A DNA stretch of 64,000 nucleotides from Natrinema marinum. Its GTDB lineage: Archaea > Halobacteriota > Halobacteria > Halobacteriales > Natrialbaceae. This document shows, one piece after another, positions 2,881-12,760 of the stretch. The notes under the pieces are model-generated. The model was not told where the DNA came from, searched no databases, and saw only the letters and a list, made by a program, of their open reading frames with translations. The stretch lies in the NCBI RefSeq assembly GCF_024296685.1, contig NZ_CP100763.1:3038001-3102000 (forward strand), given 5' to 3'. The translations under genes and the position numbers were made by a program. Position 1 is the first letter of the stretch. Each line of letters starts with the position of its first letter.

Positions 2881-3741
2881 CTATTCGACGAGTCGCTCGA
2901 TTTCGGTTACCAAAATATCGCTCGCGCCGGCCTTTTTGACCTCGGTGATCGTCTCGAAGACGTCGCTCTCGTCGACGACCGCATGGACCGCCACCTTCGC
3001 CTCGTCGTCGTTCTCGTCGGCGATATCCATGATCGTCGGTCCGCCCAGCCCCGGAATGACGTCGCGGACGTCCTCGAGTCGCTCCTGTGGCACGTTCATC
3101 ATCAGGTAGCGTTTCCCTTCGGCGTGTTTGACCGAGGACAGCGCCGTTCGAACTTCTTCGACTTTCGGCTCCGCGAGCACGTCGTCGCGGCCGAACAGCC
3201 GGACGGAACTGGCGAGCACCTCCTCGACGATGGCCAGCCGGTTCATCTTGAGCGTCGTGCCGGTGCTGGTGATGTCGACGATGGCGTCGGCCATCTCGAC
3301 GTGGGGGGTCAGCTCCGTCGCACCCGACACCTCGACGATATCGGGCTCGACGCCGGTGTCGGCGAAGAAGTCCTCGGTGATGTTCGGGAACTCGGTGGCG
3401 ACGATCTTGCCCGCCAGATCGTCGACGGACTCGATGTCGCCGTCCTCGGGCGCGGCGAGAACCAGCCGGCAGCGCCCGAACTCGAGGTCGAGCAGTTCGG
3501 AGACGTTGTCGACGCGGGCCTCGCAGACCTGATCGAAGCCGGTGATGCCGAGGTCGGCCGCGCCGTCGGCGACGTACTCCGGGATGTCGGCCGCGCGGGC
3601 GAACAGCACGGTCACGTCGGGGTCGACGGTGTCGGCGTAGAGTTTGCGGTCGGCACCGTTCTCGAGGTGGAGCCCCGCCCGCTCTAAGAGGTCGATCGTC
3701 GGCTCGTGCAGGCGGCCCTTGTTGGGAACGGCGATTCGCAT
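2881..3741 (-). CDS. hisG: ATP phosphoribosyltransferase (HisG, long form)
   Basis: This 286-residue enzyme catalyses the first step of histidine synthesis, joining ATP and PRPP. The start [11 protein letters not shown] is the family N-terminus, so I use the ATG at 3739-3741 rather than one eight codons upstream. The periplasmic-binding-protein-like catalytic part contains [10 protein letters not shown] and the phosphate-binding stretch [14 protein letters not shown] near residues 155-168. The C-terminal 80 residues ([11 protein letters not shown] through VTEIERLVE) form the ACT-like regulatory domain of long HisG, which gives histidine feedback inhibition and makes a separate HisZ unnecessary. 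No other his genes are nearby, so the pathway is scattered, as is usual in haloarchaea. It is divergent from the copB-type gene. Confidence 0.97.
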
Positions 3742-3861
3742 ATAGCGGGGTTTGGGCGGCAGCAAGGAATTGTCTTTTCATCCGGGCGAGTGTCCGCCTC
3801 GGCCCGTTTCGGCGATCGCCGGCCCGTGTTTCCTTGGTTCTCGAGCGCGTATTCGGTCGCG

Positions 3862-6246
3862 ATGGACGACCGCGACCACCGATCCGAGGCCGGCGAGGAC
3901 TCGACGGATATCGACCGCGACGACGGCGAGCGGTCGGACCGGGTCGAGGAGTCGCTGCTTGAGGACGAGGTCGACGACGCCGAGCGGGGACGAGCGGCGA
4001 TTCGAGACCGGCAGGAACACGGGGACCACGTCGGACACGAGCACGGCGACGACCGCGGGAGCGGTCACGGCGACGAGGGGACACACGGCGCTGGCGGCCG
4101 CGATCACGACGGTCGTGGCGACGGTCACGACGATCACGGCGGCGGAATGCACGAGGGCCACGAGGCGATGTTCCGGCGGCGCTTTTTCGTCTCGACGCTG
4201 CTCTCGATCCCCGTCCTGTTGTACAGCGAGACGCTTCAGGCGTGGCTCGGCTTCTCGGTCCCCGCGTTCCCCGGCAGCGACTGGCTCACCCCCGTCTTCG
4301 CGGTGATCGTCTTCGCCTACGGCGGGGTCCCCTTCCTCGAGATGGCCGTCCCCGAACTGCGCGAGCGCGCGCCGGGGATGATGACGCTCATCTCGATGGC
4401 GATCACCGTCGCGTTCGTCTACAGCCTCGCGAGCGTCGTCGTCCCCACGGAGGCGGCGTTCTTCTGGGAGCTCGTCACGCTGATCGACATCATGCTGCTG
4501 GGCCACTGGATCGAGATGCGCTCCGTCCGGCGGGCCTCGAGCGCGTTGGACGAACTGGCAAAGCTGATGCCCGACACCGCCGAGCGGATCGCCGAGGGCG
4601 GCGAAACCGAGGAGGTTCCGGCGACCGACCTCGAGGAGGGGGACCTCGTGCTCGTTCGGCCCGGCGCGAGCGTGCCCGCGGACGGCGTCGTCGAGGAGGG
4701 CGACTCGGCGGTCAACGAGTCGATGATCACCGGCGAGTCGACGGCGGTCTCGAAGGAGCCGGGCGACGAGGTGATCGGCGGCACGGTCAACGGCGACGGC
4801 AGCCTCCGGGTGCGGATCAGCGCGACGGGCGAGGAGACGACGCTGGCCGGCATCATGCGGCTGGTCGAGGAGGCCCAGTCGAGCGAGTCGAAAACGCAGG
4901 CGCTGGCCGACCGCGCCGCGGGCTGGCTGTTCTACGTCGCGCTCGGCGCGGCCGTCATCACGGCGATCGCGTGGACGATCGCGACGGGCTTCGACGCGGC
5001 GGTGATCGAGCGGGTCGTCACCGTCCTGGTCATCGCCTGCCCGCACGCGCTCGGGCTGGCGATCCCGCTGGTCGTCGCGATCAACACCTCGCTGGCCGCG
5101 CGCAACGGGATGCTCGTCCGCGACCGGATCGCCATGGAGGAAGCCCGGACCCTCGACACCGTTGTCTTCGACAAGACCGGGACGCTCACCGAGGGCGAGC
5201 AGGGCGTCGTCGATGTCGCGACCGTCGACGGCGTCTCAGAGGACGAGGCCCTCGCGCTCGCCGCGACCGTCGAGGGCGACTCGGAGCACATGATCGCCCG
5301 GGCGATCCGCGAGGCGGCCGACGAACGCGGCCTCGAGACGGGTTCGGCCACCGACTTCGAGGCGCTGAAAGGGAGGGGCGTTCGTGCGACGGTCGACGGG
5401 ACGGCGCTTCGCGCCGCCGGGCTGTCTGGCGGCGACGAGCCGCGAGACGGCGAGCGCGTTTACGTCGGCGGGCCGAACCTGCTTGCGGAACTCGAGGGCG
5501 ACGTGCCGGGGGCGCTCGAACGGTTCGCAGAGCGAGCCGGCGAGAACGCGCGGACGGTCGTGTATCTCGTTCGCGAGGGCGAGCGTAGCGAGCCCTCGGA
5601 CCGAACGAGCGGCGAACCGGTCGCCGCGTTCGCGCTCGCGGACGTGATCCGCGAGGAGAGCTACCGCGTGGTCGACGCGCTCCACGAGCTCGGGCTCGAG
5701 GTGGCGATGTTGACCGGCGACTCCGAGGACGTGGCCCGCGCGGTCGCGGCCGATCTCGGGATCGACACGGTCTTCGCCGAGGTGCTGCCCGAGGACAAGG
5801 ACGCGAAGATTACGGAGCTACAGGAGCAGGGGAAATCGGTCGCGATGGTCGGCGACGGGGTCAACGACGCGCCGGCGCTCACCAGAGCCGACATCGGGAT
5901 CGCGATCGGGAGCGGGACGGATGTCGCCGTCCAGTCGGCGGACATCATCCTGGTCCAGAACAACCCGATGGACGTGGTCCGGCTCGTGAAACTGAGCCGG
6001 GCGAGCTACCGGAAGATGCAACAGAACCTCGTCTGGGCCGCGGGCTACAACGTCTTCGCGCTCCCGCTGGCGGCCGGGATCCTCGCGCCGATCGGCGTTC
6101 TCCTCTCGCCGGCGGTCGGCGCTTTGCTCATGTCGCTCAGCACGGTGATCGTCGCGATCAACGCGCAGTTCCTCCGGCGCGTCGACCTTTCCGTACCGAG
6201 TCTGCCGGGGGGCTCCGCACCGGGGGAGGCGCGGCCCGCAGACTGA
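3862..6246 (+). CDS. copB: P1B-type heavy-metal ATPase with CPH motif (CopB-like copper exporter)
   Basis: A 794-residue membrane ATPase. Residues 1-110 are rich in histidine and acidic residues ([25 protein letters not shown]), a likely metal-binding tail in place of HMA domains. Visible core motifs are TGES (290-293, actuator), CPH in transmembrane helix 6 (393-395), the phosphorylation site DKTGT (437-441) and GDGVNDAP (664-671). CPH defines the P1B-3/CopB class, usually linked to copper export and sometimes silver. The nucleotide domain has SEHMIA (474-479) where most P1B pumps have SEHP. The ATG at 3862 was preferred to an upstream in-frame GTG/ATG because the extension overlaps the divergent hisG start and is not acidic. 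It heads the copper island. Confidence 0.92.
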
Positions 6247-6272: not shown

Positions 6273-6959
6273 TCAGCCGCCGTCCGGCGCTCGAGCGCGT
6301 CGGAGCGCCGCGTATCCCGCCGGGAGACCGAGCGGGAACGCCAGCACGCCGAACACGCCGAGAAGCGCGGTCGCTGCCCGCAAACGCCCGCGACGGATCG
6401 CGAGCAGCGTCGCGCCGACGCCCAGCGCGGCGACGCCGTACGCGGCGTTGCTCCAGATCGGGTCGTACGAGGAACAGTACAGCCAGCAGACGAGGGTGTA
6501 GGAGGGCGCGTTCCACGTCGGCGGCTGCAGTTTCGGCCAGAGGAACCGACAGTAGGTCGTCCAGCCGAGCATCGCGAGCGACGGGAGCCCGGCGAGCCAC
6601 AGCGCGACACTGCGTCGGTCGCTCGAGCCCCACCGGCGGTAGCCCGCGAGAAACAGCGCCGGGAAGCCGGCGACCCAGAGCCAGATGCCGATCGTGTACG
6701 TCACCGGCCAGTGCTCGATCCGCGGCTGTTGGATCGGGAGCCGGAGCGCCGGCGGGAGCGTCGCCCACGGGAACGACGGATCGGGGACCGGATTCGTGAA
6801 CAGCGCCGCGAGACAGAGTACCGTTCCGACCCCGAGCCCGTAGATCCCGTTGGTCGCGTACCGATCGAGCCACCGCGGGAACGCGGGTCTGTCGGAAGCG
6901 GGGCCCGATGCGGGCTCGCCGACTGTCGCTCGAGACGCGCCGGACCGACGCGGCGTCAT
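6273..6959 (-). CDS. Polytopic membrane protein coupled to the SHOCT gene
   Basis: A 228-residue protein that I do not recognise by family. After a polar N-terminus of about 35 residues there are roughly five or six hydrophobic segments, the clearest being GIYGLGVGTVLCLAALF, YTIGIWLWVAGFPALFLAGY, SVALWLAGLPSLAMLGW, YGVAALGVGATLLAI and ALLGVFGVLAFPLGLPAG. A tryptophan/proline-rich loop (WPKLQPPTWNAP) and CWLYCSSYDPIW lie between segments four and five. The ATG overlaps the stop codon of the upstream SHOCT gene by 4 bp (ATGA), so the two are translationally coupled. Its stop lies 26 bp from the convergent copB stop. A link to copper is suggested only by position. Confidence 0.75.
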   Translation of the reverse strand: MTPRRSGASRATVGEPASGPASDRPAFPRWLDRYATNGIYGLGVGTVLCLAALFTNPVPDPSFPWATLPPALRLPIQQPRIEHWPVTYTIGIWLWVAGFPALFLAGYRRWGSSDRRSVALWLAGLPSLAMLGWTTYCRFLWPKLQPPTWNAPSYTLVCWLYCSSYDPIWSNAAYGVAALGVGATLLAIRRGRLRAATALLGVFGVLAFPLGLPAGYAALRRARAPDGG

Positions 6960-7324
6960 CGGTCGCGCTCGAGGGCGTTCCGGCGTGTCTCGTACTCCTC
7001 CTCGCTCAGTTCGCCGCGGGCGTACGCGACGCGCAGTTCCTCGAGTGCCCGGTCGTCTCCGTCCGAGCCGCTGATCGCGCGGTAAAGGAGGTAGCCGCCG
7101 CCGACGATCGCGACGAGGAACGCTAACTGCATGACGAGGGCGACGAGCGCCATCCAACCGGCCCCGGTTCCGCTTCCCCACATTCCGTGTCCCCACGTGC
7201 CGCCCATCATCGGGCCGAAGCCCATCATTCCGAATCCCATGAACATCATCGGGAGTACGATGAGAGCGCCGATGGCGATGAGGACGGCCGTGGCGAGTCG
7301 GGTGTCGCGTGTATCTGTTGTCAT
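6956..7324 (-). CDS. SHOCT-domain small membrane protein
   Basis: A 122-residue protein with two hydrophobic segments: residues about 11-45 (a methionine/glycine-rich stretch with MMFMGFGMMGFGPMMGG) and 58-80. The C-terminal 30 residues (RALEELRVAYARGELSEEEYETRRNAL) are a SHOCT domain, a short helical module that ends many bacterial and archaeal membrane proteins. The dense methionines and the HGMWG motif between the membrane segments could bind Cu(I); that is inference from composition and from the copper neighbours. It overlaps the next gene by 4 bp and may itself be overlapped by a candidate gene upstream. Confidence 0.85.
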   Translation of the reverse strand: MTTDTRDTRLATAVLIAIGALIVLPMMFMGFGMMGFGPMMGGTWGHGMWGSGTGAGWMALVALVMQLAFLVAIVGGGYLLYRAISGSDGDDRALEELRVAYARGELSEEEYETRRNALERDR

Positions 7325-7605: not shown

Positions 7606-7716
7606 CGCGATCTTAGTTTCACAGCCCCGTTCACTTTCGAACGCTACTTCTGTCGGCTGAAAATCCAGTGGATCCGAAGGGCAACCGCAATAGCCGATTC
7701 CTCCGATAGAGGACGT
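7325..7716. other. 392-bp gap between divergent SHOCT and permease genes
   Basis: The stretch is less GC-rich than its flanks. It holds the uncertain frame 7321-7605, the SHOCT-proximal palindrome, and a symmetrical AT-rich run GCTGAAAATCC near 7657-7667 that could serve as a TATA element on either strand: for the permease (ATG 7717) on the plus strand or for the candidate gene on the minus strand. Nothing else is recognised. Confidence 0.5.
7331..7340. promoter_or_regulatory. Palindrome TCACCGGTGA at the SHOCT start
   Basis: A perfect 10-bp palindrome lies 7 bp upstream of the SHOCT start codon. A TATA-like TACTTTTA on the minus strand (7358-7366) would place the transcript start close to this palindrome, so a repressor bound there could block initiation. 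Function is inferred; the palindrome is short enough to be chance. Confidence 0.35.
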
Positions 7717-9105
7717 ATGGAGGCGACACTCATTGAGGGGGTTCTCGAGTCGCTCCGGATCGGCTTCGGGTTTCTCTGGACGGCGGCGTGGGCGATCATC
7801 ATGGGACTGACCATCACGAGCCTCGTGCAGGTATACGTCTCGAAGGAGCGAATGGCGCGGGTTCTCGGGGAGAGTTCCCTCTCGAGCCTCGCGAAGGCGA
7901 CGGCGTTCGGCGCGGCGAGCAGCGGCTGTAGCTTCGGTGCCGTCGCCATCGGACGGGGCCTCTTCGCGAAGGGCGCACACGCGGTGAATTTCCTCGCGTT
8001 CATGTTCGCGTCGACGAACCTCATCGTCGAACTCGGGCTGATGATCCTGATTCTGCTCGGCTGGGAGTTCCTCGTCGCGGAACTCCTCGGCGGACTCGTT
8101 CTGATCGCCGTGATGGCGCTCATCGTCCGATTCACGCTCCCGGAAGCGCTGTTCGACGACGTTCGCGCGGAACTCGACCGGCACGGTCACGGCGGGATGA
8201 CGGATCCGACCTGTGGGATGGAGGGGACGGACGAACACGCCATCGTGACCGACGGCGGCGAGACGCTGACGTTCTGTTCGGAGGGGTGTCTCGAGACCTA
8301 TCGCCAGCGGGCGGCGAGCGGCGGTGCGTGGCACGACGAACTCCGGTCGTGGGGCGGCTGGTACAAGATCGGGAACCAGTACCGAAAGGAGTGGTCGATG
8401 ATCTGGAAGGACGTCGTCGCGGGCTTTCTCGTCTCGGGGTTCGTCATCGTGTTCGTCCCGCAGCGGGTCTGGAACGCGCTGTTCATTCAGGGTGACGGGA
8501 TCCTCGTGACCGCCGAAAACGCGATCATGGGCGTCGCGATCGCCGTTATCAGCTTCGTCGGGAGCATGGGAAACGTCCCGTTCGCGGTCGCCCTCTGGGG
8601 CGGTGGGATCAGCTTCGCCGGCGTCATCGCCTTCGTTTACGCCGATCTCATCACGATCCCGGTGTTGAACGTCTACCGGAAGTACTACGGCTGGAAGGTC
8701 ATGCTCTATATCCTCGCCGTCTTCTTCGTGACGATGGCCTTCACCGGCTTTCTCATGGAACTGCTCTTCGACGCGCTCGGCATCGTTCCGAACTTGGCCG
8801 GCGGCGAGACGGCGACCGAGCGGACGTATTTCGAACTGAACTACACGTTCTACCTGAACCTCGTCGCGGTCGCGTTCTCGGGCTTTCTGCTGTACGTGTA
8901 CCGTCGCGGGCTGGGCGCACCCGGCCGGTACCGCGATCCGGTCTGCGGGATGCGAACGGACGACGACGGTCCGTCTGCGACCCACGACGGCGACACCTAC
9001 TATTTCTGCTCGACCGCCTGCGAGCGGGCGTTCGAAGCGTCGCCCGCCGAATTCGCATCGGCATCGCCGCGCGTTTCAGAGGCCGGAGATCACGAGCACC
9101 ATTAA
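7717..9105 (+). CDS. DUF318 (YraQ/ArsP-type) permease with two TRASH/YHS metal-binding modules
   Basis: A 462-residue membrane protein. Each half carries a DUF318 permease signature: SSGCSFGAVAIGR (68-80) and GSMGNVPFAVALW (282-294). About eight membrane segments are visible (13-38, 93-115, 117-137, 232-250, 268-296, 302-318, 326-352, 374-393). The loop between halves carries a TRASH/YHS module DPTCGM...FCSEGC (C166, C187, C191), and a second module DPVCGM...FCSTAC (C410, C431, C435) follows the last membrane segment, before a His tail (DHEHH). TRASH/YHS modules bind soft metals such as copper through these cysteines. DUF318 proteins include organoarsenical/metal permeases such as ArsP. Placement beside copZ, a TRASH regulator and copA suggests metal-gated export of copper, which is inference. 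Confidence 0.9.
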   Translation: MEATLIEGVLESLRIGFGFLWTAAWAIIMGLTITSLVQVYVSKERMARVLGESSLSSLAKATAFGAASSGCSFGAVAIGRGLFAKGAHAVNFLAFMFASTNLIVELGLMILILLGWEFLVAELLGGLVLIAVMALIVRFTLPEALFDDVRAELDRHGHGGMTDPTCGMEGTDEHAIVTDGGETLTFCSEGCLETYRQRAASGGAWHDELRSWGGWYKIGNQYRKEWSMIWKDVVAGFLVSGFVIVFVPQRVWNALFIQGDGILVTAENAIMGVAIAVISFVGSMGNVPFAVALWGGGISFAGVIAFVYADLITIPVLNVYRKYYGWKVMLYILAVFFVTMAFTGFLMELLFDALGIVPNLAGGETATERTYFELNYTFYLNLVAVAFSGFLLYVYRRGLGAPGRYRDPVCGMRTDDDGPSATHDGDTYYFCSTACERAFEASPAEFASASPRVSEAGDHEHH

Positions 9106-9165: not shown

Positions 9166-9363
9166 TTACGCCGACGCCTCGTAGCCGGCCTCGTCGACCG
9201 CTTCGACGAGGGCCGTCGTCTCCGCGTCGCCCTCGACGGTCGCTCGCTCCGCGTCGCGGTCGACGTTTACCGTCTCGACGCCGTCGACGCCCTCGAGCGC
9301 TTCTTCGACGGTCTGTTCGCAGTGTTCGCAGGACATGCCTTCGACGGTGATCGTCTGACTCAT
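9166..9363 (-). CDS. copZ: CopZ-like copper chaperone (HMA domain)
   Basis: A 65-residue single-domain protein with the ferredoxin-like HMA fold. The metal site is GMSCEHC (cysteines at 12 and 15), followed by the usual helix EQTVEEALEGVDGVETVNVDRDAERATVEG and ending in VDEAGYEA. It binds Cu(I) in the cytoplasm and hands it to P1B ATPases and regulators. The extra histidine between the cysteines (CEHC) is a known variant. The gene faces away from the regulator gene that follows and converges on the permease. The equivalent trio of chaperone, TRASH regulator and ATPase is documented in Halobacterium salinarum (VNG0702H, VNG0703H, VNG0700G). Confidence 0.93.
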   Translation of the reverse strand: MSQTITVEGMSCEHCEQTVEEALEGVDGVETVNVDRDAERATVEGDAETTALVEAVDEAGYEASA

Positions 9364-9365
9364 AG

Positions 9366-9375
9366 ATACGCGTAT
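9366..9375. promoter_or_regulatory. Palindrome ATACGCGTAT at the copZ start
   Basis: A perfect 10-bp palindrome begins 3 bp before the copZ start codon, on the upstream side. In a near-leaderless gene this position covers the transcript start, so it is a natural operator site. No protein has been shown to bind it. Confidence 0.35.
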
Positions 9376-9490
9376 GGACTGGTGCTCTTTGTACGTTGCT
9401 CCTTCTGATCCGAAGCCTGAATCCGTTCTCGCTTTCTCATCGAAAGCGGTCGGCGCTACTCTCTTTGTTCCCGAGCCCGAACGACCTGGT

Positions 9491-10078
9491 ATGCGCGACC
9501 TCGACGAGACCGATATGGAAATTCTGCGGCTGCTGGGCGAGGACGCCCGTCGGCCTTACAGCGAGATCGCCCAGCACGTCGGCCTCTCCGGGCCGGCCGT
9601 CTCGGACCGAGTCGACCGCCTCGAGGAAGCGGGGGTCATCGAGGGCTTCACCGTCGACGTGGATCAGTCACAGCTCCGCGCGGGAATTCCGGTGTTCGTG
9701 CGGGCGACCGTTCCACAGCGCGCCGTCGACGACTGCAGGGCGGCGGTCGCGGACGCCGACGCCGTCGAGCACGTGTTCGTCACCGCCGACGGCGAACTCT
9801 GGTTTTACGCGCGTGCACAGGTCCAGCGGGTCCGCGAGTGGCTCGACGGAATCTTTCCCGCTGACGGCGTCGATTACGCGGTGACGCTGCTTGACGACGC
9901 CGAGTGGACGCCGTCGCTCGACGGCACCTCCTTCGCGCTCACCTGCGCGGAGTGTGGCAACACCGTCGACAGCGAGGGCGAGTCGACCCGCATCGACGGC
10001 GAGGTGTACCACTTCTGCTGTCCCTCCTGCTCGAGCCGGTTCGAAACCCGATACGAGCGACTCGAGGAGGGTGCCTGA
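9491..10078 (+). CDS. Lrp/AsnC-type regulator with C-terminal TRASH metal-sensing domain
   Basis: A 195-residue protein. Residues 4-50 are an AsnC winged helix (DETDMEILRLLGEDARRPYSEIAQHVGLSGPAVSDRV as two blocks), residues 60-135 resemble a RAM-type effector domain, and the C-terminus is a TRASH module with CAEC (152-155) and FCCPSC (175-180), cysteine pairs suited to Cu(I). The ATG at 9491 is chosen because it begins the conserved MRDLDETDMEIL; the upstream extension is uncharged and non-conserved. The Halobacterium homologue VNG0703H is a copper-responsive regulator needed for induction of the copper ATPase (established work on that organism). Here it probably controls copA, 84 bp downstream, and copZ, divergent from it. 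Confidence 0.9.
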   Translation: MRDLDETDMEILRLLGEDARRPYSEIAQHVGLSGPAVSDRVDRLEEAGVIEGFTVDVDQSQLRAGIPVFVRATVPQRAVDDCRAAVADADAVEHVFVTADGELWFYARAQVQRVREWLDGIFPADGVDYAVTLLDDAEWTPSLDGTSFALTCAECGNTVDSEGESTRIDGEVYHFCCPSCSSRFETRYERLEEGA

Positions 10079-10162: not shown

Positions 10163-12760
10163 ATGAGTGTCAGGACTGCACACCTCGACATCCGGGGCAT
10201 GAGTTGTGCGAACTGTTCGCAGACGATCACCGATGCCCTAGAATCCCTCGACGGCGTGCGCGAGGCCACCGTCAACTTCGCCACAGACGAGGGGACCGTC
10301 GAGTACGACCCCGAGGCGGTATCGCTCGCCGATATTTACGCCGCGATCGAGGACGCCGGCTACGAGGCCGACCGCGAGAAGCGTTCGATCGGCATCACCG
10401 ACATGTCCTGTGCGAACTGCGCTGAAACCAACGAGTCGGCCCTCGAGGACACCCCCGGCGTCATCGACGCGGACGTGAACTACGCGACCGACGAGGCGGC
10501 CGTCGAGTACAATCCGGCCAACACTTCGCTGTCGGCGCTCTACGAGGCCATCGAGGAGGCCGGGTACACGCCCGTCCGCGACGAGGGCGGCGACGAGTCG
10601 GAGGGAGAGCGACGCGACGCGGCCCGACGGGAGGAGATCCGCAAACAGCGCCGACTGACGATCTTCGGCGCGGTGCTGTCGGCCCCGTTCCTGTTCTTCC
10701 TCGCCGACAAGTTCCTGCTCGAGGGCGCGTACGTTCCGGAGACGATCTTCGGCGTCTCGTTCGGCTGGGTCGAATTCCTGCTCGCGACGCCGGTCTACGT
10801 CCTGCTGGGACGTGAGTTCCTCGAGAACTCCTACACGGCGCTCGCGAAGAACCGGTCGGCCAACATGGACGTGCTGATCGCGCTGGGCTCGTCGACGGCG
10901 TATTTCTACAGCGTCGTCGTCCTGCTTGACCTGCTCGCGGGGAGTCTCTACTTCGACACCGCCGCGATGATCCTCGTGTTCATCACGCTGGGCAACTACC
11001 TCGAGGCCCGCTCGAAGGGACAGGCCGGCGAGGCACTGCGGAAACTGCTCGAGATGGAGGCCGAGACGGCCACTGTGGTCGACGACGAGGGGAACGAAGC
11101 GGAGATTCCACTCGAGGAGGTCGCGGTCGGCGACCGGATGAAGGTCCGGCCGGGCGAGAAGGTGCCGACCGACGGCGTCGTCGTCGACGGCCAGTCGGCG
11201 GTCGACGAGTCGATGGTGACCGGCGAGTCGGTCCCGGTCGAGAAAGAGTCGGGCGACGAAGTCGTCGGCTCGACGGTCAACGAGAACGGCGTGCTCGTCG
11301 TCGAGGCGACGAAGGTCGGGAAAGACACGGCGCTCCAGCAGATCGTCCGGACGGTCAAGGAAGCCCAGGCGCGCCAGCCGGAGATCCAGAACCTCGCCGA
11401 CCGCATCTCGGCGTACTTCGTCCCCGCGGTCATTCTGAACGCGATCTTCTGGGGGCTGGTCTGGTTTCTCTTCCCGAAAGCGCTCGCTGGCTTCGTCGGC
11501 TCGCTCCCGCTGTGGGGGCTGGTCGGCGGCGGCCCGGCCGCGCTCTCGACGTTCGAGTTCGCGGTCGTCGTCTTCGCCTCCGCGGTGCTGATCGCCTGTC
11601 CCTGTGCGCTGGGGCTGGCGACGCCCGCGGCGACGATGGTCGGCTCCACGCTGGGCGCTCAGAACGGCGTCCTGTTCAAGGGCGGGGACGTCTTGGAGCG
11701 CGCGAAGGACGTCGACACCGTCGTCTTCGACAAGACCGGCACGCTGACGACCGGCGAGATGACGCTGACCGACGTGGTCGCGCTCGAGGGCGACGGTGAG
11801 ACGGCGGCCGCTGACGGCGGTGAACCGGCCGCCGACGGTGGCGCGCTCGCGGCTCGAGCCGGCCTCGACCAAAACGAAGTGCTTCGCCTCGCGGCCAGCG
11901 CCGAGCGCAACAGCGAACACCCGCTCGCGCAGGCCATCGTCGAGGGAGCCGAGGAACGCGGCCTCGAGCCGACCGACCCCGACGGGTTCGAGAACGTCCC
12001 CGGCCAGGGCGTTCGGGCGACTGTCGACGACCGCGAGGTGCTGGTCGGCAACCGGCGGCTGCTCGAGGACGCTGGCGTCGACCCCGCGCCCGCCGAGTCG
12101 GCGATGGAACGGCTCGAGCGCGAGGGCAAGACCGCGATGCTGGTGGCCGTCGACGGCGCGGTCGCGGGCGTGGTCGCGGATGCCGACACGGTCAAAGAGA
12201 GCTCGGCCGACGCGGTCGCCGCTCTCCGAGAGCGCGGCCTCGACGTGATGCTAATCACGGGCGACAACGAGCGGACGGCCCGCGCCGTCGCCGAGCGCGT
12301 GGGGATCGACCCCGAGAACGTCCGCGCGGGCGTCCTGCCGGAGGATAAGGCCGACGCCGTCGAGGAGATCCAGTCGTCTGGCCGCAAGGCGATGATGGTC
12401 GGGGACGGGGTCAACGACGCGCCCGCGCTCGCGGTCGCCTCCGTCGGCACGGCCATCGGCTCCGGGACGGACGTGGCCATCGAAGCCGCGGACGTGACGC
12501 TGATGCGCGACGATCCGCTGGACGTGGTGAAGGCGATTCGGATCTCCGAGGCCACCCTCCAGAAGATCAAGCAGAACCTCGTCTGGGCGCTGGGCTACAA
12601 CACCGCGATGATCCCGCTGGCCTCGCTCGGGCTGCTCCAGCCCGTCCTCGCGGCCGGCGCGATGGCGCTGTCGTCGGTCTCGGTCCTCTCGAACAGCCTG
12701 CTGTTCCGCCGGTACACGCCCGACCGGGACTACCGACTGCTCGGTCGGCTCCGTCGATAA
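10163..12760 (+). CDS. copA: Cu(I)-exporting P1B-1 ATPase (CopA)
   Basis: An 865-residue pump exporting Cu(I). Two N-terminal HMA domains carry GMSCANC (12-18) and DMSCANC (80-86). The core has TGES (353-356), the CPC metal site in the membrane (479-481), phosphorylation motif DKTGT (523-527), SEHPLAQ in the nucleotide domain and GDGVNDAP near the end. CPC with two HMA domains places it in class P1B-1, unlike the CPH pump at 3862-6246, so the island encodes two chemically distinct exporters. An acidic alanine/glycine-rich insert (about residues 545-570) just after the phosphorylation site is probably a halophilic loop. It lies downstream of the TRASH regulator and is the probable ATPase partner of the CopZ-like chaperone. 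Confidence 0.97.

Follow-up and report, generated by a model that had tools for sequence, protein, structure and literature searches.

A haloarchaeal ArsP_1-fold permease with two YHS modules among the copper genes of Natrinema marinum

The relatives with known phenotypes of the permease described here, ArsP and the distant relative SO_0444, both act in efflux (PMC3219624, PMC4435449). A C(S/T)C motif has been reported for all surveyed ArsP proteins (PMC4435449), and SO_0444, whose family has a UxC/CxC pore motif with UxC given for the selenoprotein form (PMC13188914), is required for growth under Cu or Zn stress (PMC3219624). An internal 4+4 repeat is a property of the whole permease family (PMC7176098). 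Regarding YHS domains, an Asp plus three Cys has been proposed as the ligand set of the module that makes an adenylyl cyclase of Mycobacterium phlei copper-responsive, and the YHS of toluene hydroxylase is without any known metal role (PMC4626032). YHS modules in haloarchaeal permeases are not new, since that of the Halovivax ruber protein AGB15007.1 has already been aligned, as one row of Fig. 1B of the same work (PMC4626032); its likeness to our protein is taken from that description, a haloarchaeal permease with YHS/TRASH. In Halobacterium, a gene for a copper P1B-ATPase is under positive control of an Lrp-family protein with a TRASH domain (reviewed in PMC3600143), and in Haloferax alexandrinus a COG0701 permease, possibly an orthologue of the one studied here, rises by 3.49 log2 with 0.5 mM Ag (PMC10694973). 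The literature searched held no paper on our permease, no experiment on it or on a close relative, and no description of its two-module architecture, the invariance of that architecture, the separate origins of the modules or the copper setting.

The permease is encoded in a stretch of 64,000 nucleotides of the Natrinema marinum genome (contig NZ_CP100763.1, positions 3,038,001 to 3,102,000), hereafter the window. The genes to the left of the permease are, in order, TBP, one resembling HisG (named by eye), a CPH-type P1B-ATPase and, in minus orientation, a SHOCT protein; to its right follow CopZ, also in minus orientation, an Lrp-TRASH regulator, CopA and, at some distance, a SpoIIM-type protein. 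The features are listed below in window coordinates.

3706..6246, plus strand: P1B-ATPase with His-rich N-terminus and CPH motif (CopB-like); start probably near 3862
6956..7324, minus strand: Met-rich membrane protein with a SHOCT tail (Pfam SHOCT), divergent from the permease
7717..9105, plus strand: ArsP_1 (DUF318) permease with two YHS modules (ORF, translation, Pfam ArsP_1 and YHS)
7912..7950, plus strand: first-half pore motif AASSGCSFGAVAI, residues 66-78, including the invariant C71
8203..8325, plus strand: mid-loop YHS (YHS1), residues 163-203, with D163, C166, C187 and C191 (Pfam, conservation, model, fold search)
8548..8604, plus strand: pore motif of the second half, ISFVGSMGNVPFAVALWGG, residues 278-296; it corresponds to the C71 motif
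8935..9063, plus strand: C-terminal YHS (YHS2), residues 407-449, with D407, C410, C431 and C435 (Pfam above cut-off; invariant Cys)
9088..9102, plus strand: His-containing tail DHEHH (His count in the last 12 residues)
9166..9363, minus strand: CopZ-type copper chaperone with an HMA domain (Pfam HMA 3e-20; NCBIfam CopZ_AFE_1862, 86.2 bits, cut-off 85)
9374..10078, plus strand: Lrp/AsnC regulator with C-terminal TRASH (Pfam HTH_AsnC, TRASH_HVO_1752_C); true start probably the ATG at 9491
10163..12760, plus strand: CopA, a Cu+ P1B-ATPase with two HMA domains and a CPC motif

The permease ORF runs from the ATG at 7717 to a stop ending at 9105 and encodes 462 amino acids with no internal stops. 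Pfam ArsP_1 (PF03773) covers residues 17-348 (E 6.3e-54, 183.6 bits against a cut-off of 32.3), Pfam YHS matches two stretches (E 3.2e-14 for the whole protein), and the permease halves are related as an internal repeat (hhalign probability 78%; blastp E 5e-5 with composition correction switched off). A sequence search of the PDB gave no homologue of the protein. It contains exactly seven cysteines (71, 166, 187, 191, 410, 431 and 435), six of which belong to the two TRASH/YHS modules, one behind each permease half, precisely where the original prediction had placed them. The seventh, C71, which that prediction did not mention, lies in the pore motif SSGCSFG and is invariant in the haloarchaeal sequences and in every archaeal or bacterial relative in the alignment. 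Residues 71-73 read CSF in all orthologues, so that Phe replaces the second Cys of the ArsP motif, and no aligned archaeal or bacterial relative has a Cys at the third place of C(S/T)C.

With the ArsP family (TC 2.A.119) the permease shares the Pfam domain, the two-half internal repeat and a hydrophilic mid-loop, but it lacks C(S/T)C, carries two YHS modules and has copper instead of ars neighbours; a strict ArsP organoarsenical exporter was rejected on the absence of the motif. The SO_0444 Cu/Zn efflux family (NF033936) is the best NCBIfam match, over nearly the whole permease, and has the Cu link in common; our protein differs from it in having CSF at the position of UxC/CxC and in the added YHS modules, and membership was rejected because it scores 62.6 bits, the cut-off being 300. 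The haloarchaeal one-YHS paralogues (about 34-44% identity), among them the genome's own L002, likewise have a mid-loop YHS and the pore motifs, but none has a C-terminal YHS, they carry a Cys in the second pore motif (CSVGNVPF), and the mid-loop module of L002 is of the CxxC type.

When scored alone in the genome, YHS2 reaches 39.3 bits, above the PF04945 cut-off of 30.3, and YHS1 22.0 bits (E 7e-4), below it. An AlphaFold2 model of isolated YHS1 (pLDDT 81) has a strand-strand-helix arrangement whose nearest solved folds, at the level of weak matches (Foldseek E >0.1, Z 3 to 4.4), are TRASH domains of the L24e/RLP24 type and the toluene/o-xylene monooxygenase YHS, and a profile search of solved structures ranked the phenol hydroxylase YHS first and then L24e. 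The D, C, C and C of the module are invariant across a 52-sequence module alignment. Given this invariance and the isolated fold model, the mid-loop YHS is credible despite its sub-cut-off score and we regard it as a real module; the E-values, and cysteines that do not vary at about 80% overall identity, rule out chance. Both modules carry the Asp plus three Cys ligand set of metal-type YHS/TRASH domains and, by analogy with the characterised ones, would bind metal.

A search of other genomes for the same two-module architecture, as had been proposed, returned orthologues (full-length matches at 73% identity or more) in 66 of the 195 genomes of the order, or about one third of haloarchaea. Orthologues were found on many plasmids and in 80 named loci across many genera, which together with the window make a set of 81 sequences. 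The expected conservation of the module cysteines was borne out: all seven cysteines, the six of the modules and C71, are invariant in 81/81 haloarchaeal sequences, with a mean identity to the query of 70-72% in the YHS regions against 86-90% in the membrane halves. The last 12 residues hold two to four His in every member of the set, and ArsP_1 plus YHS was detected in all 34 members scanned. No relative was present in the viral contigs scanned. A near-full-length copy, 72% identical, occurs in a small genome of another family of the same phylum (G221:C19:58076-59419), where it represents either recent transfer or contamination.

The architecture is also unusual for ArsP-type permeases, as had been claimed, since no YHS was found in those bacterial relatives from plasmids that were read. 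A further part of the original prediction, that sensor and pore had been duplicated in register, had to be given up, because the repeat is family-wide, the paralogues have the mid-loop YHS only, the bacteria have none and YHS2 is nearer to the YHS of ATPases than to YHS1. The mean pairwise score of YHS2 is 104 with the ATPase YHS, 98 with the paralogue mid-loop YHS and 70 with YHS1, and YHS1 is closest to the paralogue mid-loop YHS (77). In tblastn searches of 72,556 plasmid records with the mid-loop or the tail segment, no bacterial permease with the segment was among the 60 matches listed for each, and the matches listed for the tail segment included the YHS of heavy-metal P-type ATPases. 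The YHS of copper P1B-ATPases (e.g. the Rhizobium type, D-P-V-C-G-M...FCS..C) is the closest to the C-terminal module in the compared set, although there it is fused to an ATP-driven pump and not to a permease. In a small, divergent archaeal group (L116, L117 and L119) the mid-loop YHS is accompanied by a C-terminal YHS-like stretch from which the metal cysteines are missing. From these comparisons the two modules seem to have been added separately, neither being a copy of the other, and in the simplest reading the mid-loop module was acquired first and the C-terminal module later. In a tree of the core, the YHS permeases are not all grouped: the orthologues stand with a Nitratireductor protein that has no YHS (support 100). 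A single origin of all YHS permeases lies outside the best tree, but the AU test does not reject it (AU p 0.087).

In some bacterial relatives both module places are taken by Met/His-rich stretches, GSMEGHAAMDMS in the loop and MLRMMGG plus His-rich tails at the end. Five YHS-less bacterial permeases (L137-L139, L145 and L146) share the conserved mid-loop motif GSMEGHAAM(D/S)MS, most of them with Met- or His-rich tails, and the mid-loop motif and tails are possible Cu(I) sites. We tentatively consider, as a rather speculative idea, that the mid-loop and the C-terminal tail might each serve as a cytosolic site for metal loading, and that different modules came to occupy the two independently: Met/His-rich stretches in some bacteria, a single YHS in most archaeal copies and, here, two YHS of different origin.

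The genome encodes seven P1B-ATPases above cut-off, two of them no further than 6 kb from the permease, against about 0.02 expected by chance, and the adjoining Lrp-TRASH regulator is the genome's top match to TRASH_HVO_1752_C. At the other loci, the commonest neighbour is a SHOCT homologue (69 of 80), followed by an ORF of the P1B-ATPase family within about 8 kb (51/80) and an Lrp-TRASH homologue (30/80), counts which are not independent because one island is common to many plasmids. Several distinct gene arrangements occur among the loci, and most of the local gene order of the window is retained in twelve of Natrinema/Haloterrigena type. The permease lies near a copper ATPase, a multicopper oxidase, an HMA protein, DUF302 and DoxX on a Halalkalicoccus plasmid, and near a P-type ATPase, an HMA protein and a plastocyanin-type protein on a Haloplanus plasmid. 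One YHS-less bacterial relative adjoins a P1B-ATPase, CueR, DUF305 and SCO, and another a P1B-ATPase and a multicopper oxidase, which suggests that the copper link of the permease group is independent of the YHS modules. Relatives without copper neighbours are those of Nitratireductor, Streptomyces and Frondihabitans and the genome's own L002. The copper-gene neighbours at the window and elsewhere agree with the metal role that had been predicted, and no characterised non-metal permease with both modules was found. Since DUF302, DoxX, SHOCT and universal stress proteins also recur, the cluster may serve wider metal or thiol stress.

Some further observations concern the genes of these clusters. 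The stretch MMGFGPMMGG..WGHGMWG of the Met-rich SHOCT-tail protein suggests a Cu(I) ligand role. In a plasmid island copied in many haloarchaea (L051:3312-5450), the N-terminus of a P-type ATPase reads as frameshifted and its membrane motif is CPG, not CPC/CPH. In the window, a 127-bp divergent region (9364-9490) is left if the Lrp-TRASH ORF starts at 9491, and the palindrome CGCTTTCTCATCGAAAGCG (CGCTTTC and GAAAGCG about TCATC, 9430-9448), upstream of the regulator and partly conserved in Natrinema relatives, is a possible operator. An operator shared by regulator and permease was rejected, as this palindrome is conserved only in part and the permease promoter has no such palindrome. Upstream of the permease (7617-7716), two stretches are kept in Natrinema relatives, ACTTTCGA and, closer to the start, GAAGGGCAAYCGCAATAG; a sigma-70 promoter scan of this archaeal host gave nothing useful.

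Of the structural modelling that had been suggested, only the part concerning the isolated mid-loop module succeeded, the full-length AlphaFold2 model being unusable (pLDDT 48.6), and the topology given here therefore rests on charge counts. Lys/Arg counts are high on both sides of the first motif (from TM1 up to it and again behind it), on either flank of the mid-loop module, in the TM7-TM8 loop and immediately ahead of YHS2, with values near zero in most other loops; the pattern is present in orthologues and weaker in relatives. The positive charges by the mid-loop and before YHS2 suggest that both YHS modules face the cytosol, and the charge pattern would fit two inverted repeats with re-entrant pore motifs. 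A conflict of parity would arise if every hydrophobic stretch of the second half were counted as crossing: YHS2 would then lie outside, unless one of them is a re-entrant hairpin.

On balance, we think it probable that the protein is an ArsP_1-fold metal permease of copper (possibly also silver) homeostasis, most likely exporting cytosolic metal, with cytosolic YHS modules that load or gate the pore. Its core would consist of two repeats, probably in inverted orientation, with one conserved pore motif apiece (SSGCSFG and SMGNVPF), C71 being a likely thiol ligand in the transport path. Each cytosolic YHS would bind one soft metal ion via its Asp and three Cys, and the modules would either hand metal on to the pore, so serving as the permease's own docking site for CopZ-borne metal, or alter the state of the pore at high metal. 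The metal entry or gating at two sites of the original prediction likewise stands as a hypothesis. This loading or gating role is favoured because the ligand set matches that proposed for the copper-responsive cyclase YHS, and we infer export rather than import from the neighbours and from SO_0444 and ArsP.

The opposite direction, in which copper is brought in or moved for cuproprotein assembly and the cytosolic YHS close the permease when the cell is copper-replete, seems unlikely to us: some homologues do adjoin SCO, CcdA, TlpA and DsbE (cuproenzyme assembly) or a plastocyanin-type protein, and feedback closure would fit cytosolic sensing modules, but the genes nearest to it in the window serve export and detoxification, and the two relatives with known phenotypes act in efflux. 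Somewhat less likely still is an exporter of other soft cargo (Zn, Cd, an organoarsenical or a metal-thiol complex) in a general metal island, with YHS that sense several metals. The breadth of the ArsP_1 fold, which covers an organoarsenical exporter and a Cu/Zn exporter, and the many copies on plasmid islands with several stress genes would agree with such a cargo; against it, the permease is without the ArsP C(S/T)C motif and its recurrent partners are copper-specific genes. That the modules are structural Zn-binding domains, which stabilise the protein or bind a partner and have no part in transport, is improbable, for although YHS/TRASH folds are known as structural modules (L24e, toluene hydroxylase), a related archaeal group retains a C-terminal YHS-like stretch whose cysteines are lost and bacterial relatives manage without modules, none of the six cysteines changes in modules that are otherwise variable, and Met/His-rich stretches stand at the same two places in some bacterial relatives.

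Haloarchaeal copper resistance has so far been described mainly in terms of a P1B-ATPase, CopZ and a TRASH regulator, and a conserved, mobile, non-ATPase permease in copper clusters, such as the exporter favoured here, would mean a second transport route. It would offer a testable case of metal-binding modules added onto an ArsP_1 pore and, if the two sites have been filled independently, a two-site metal hand-over transporter made by convergent module replacement. It would also assign a function to many genes labelled just 'permease', including the bacterial ones beside CueR and multicopper oxidases.
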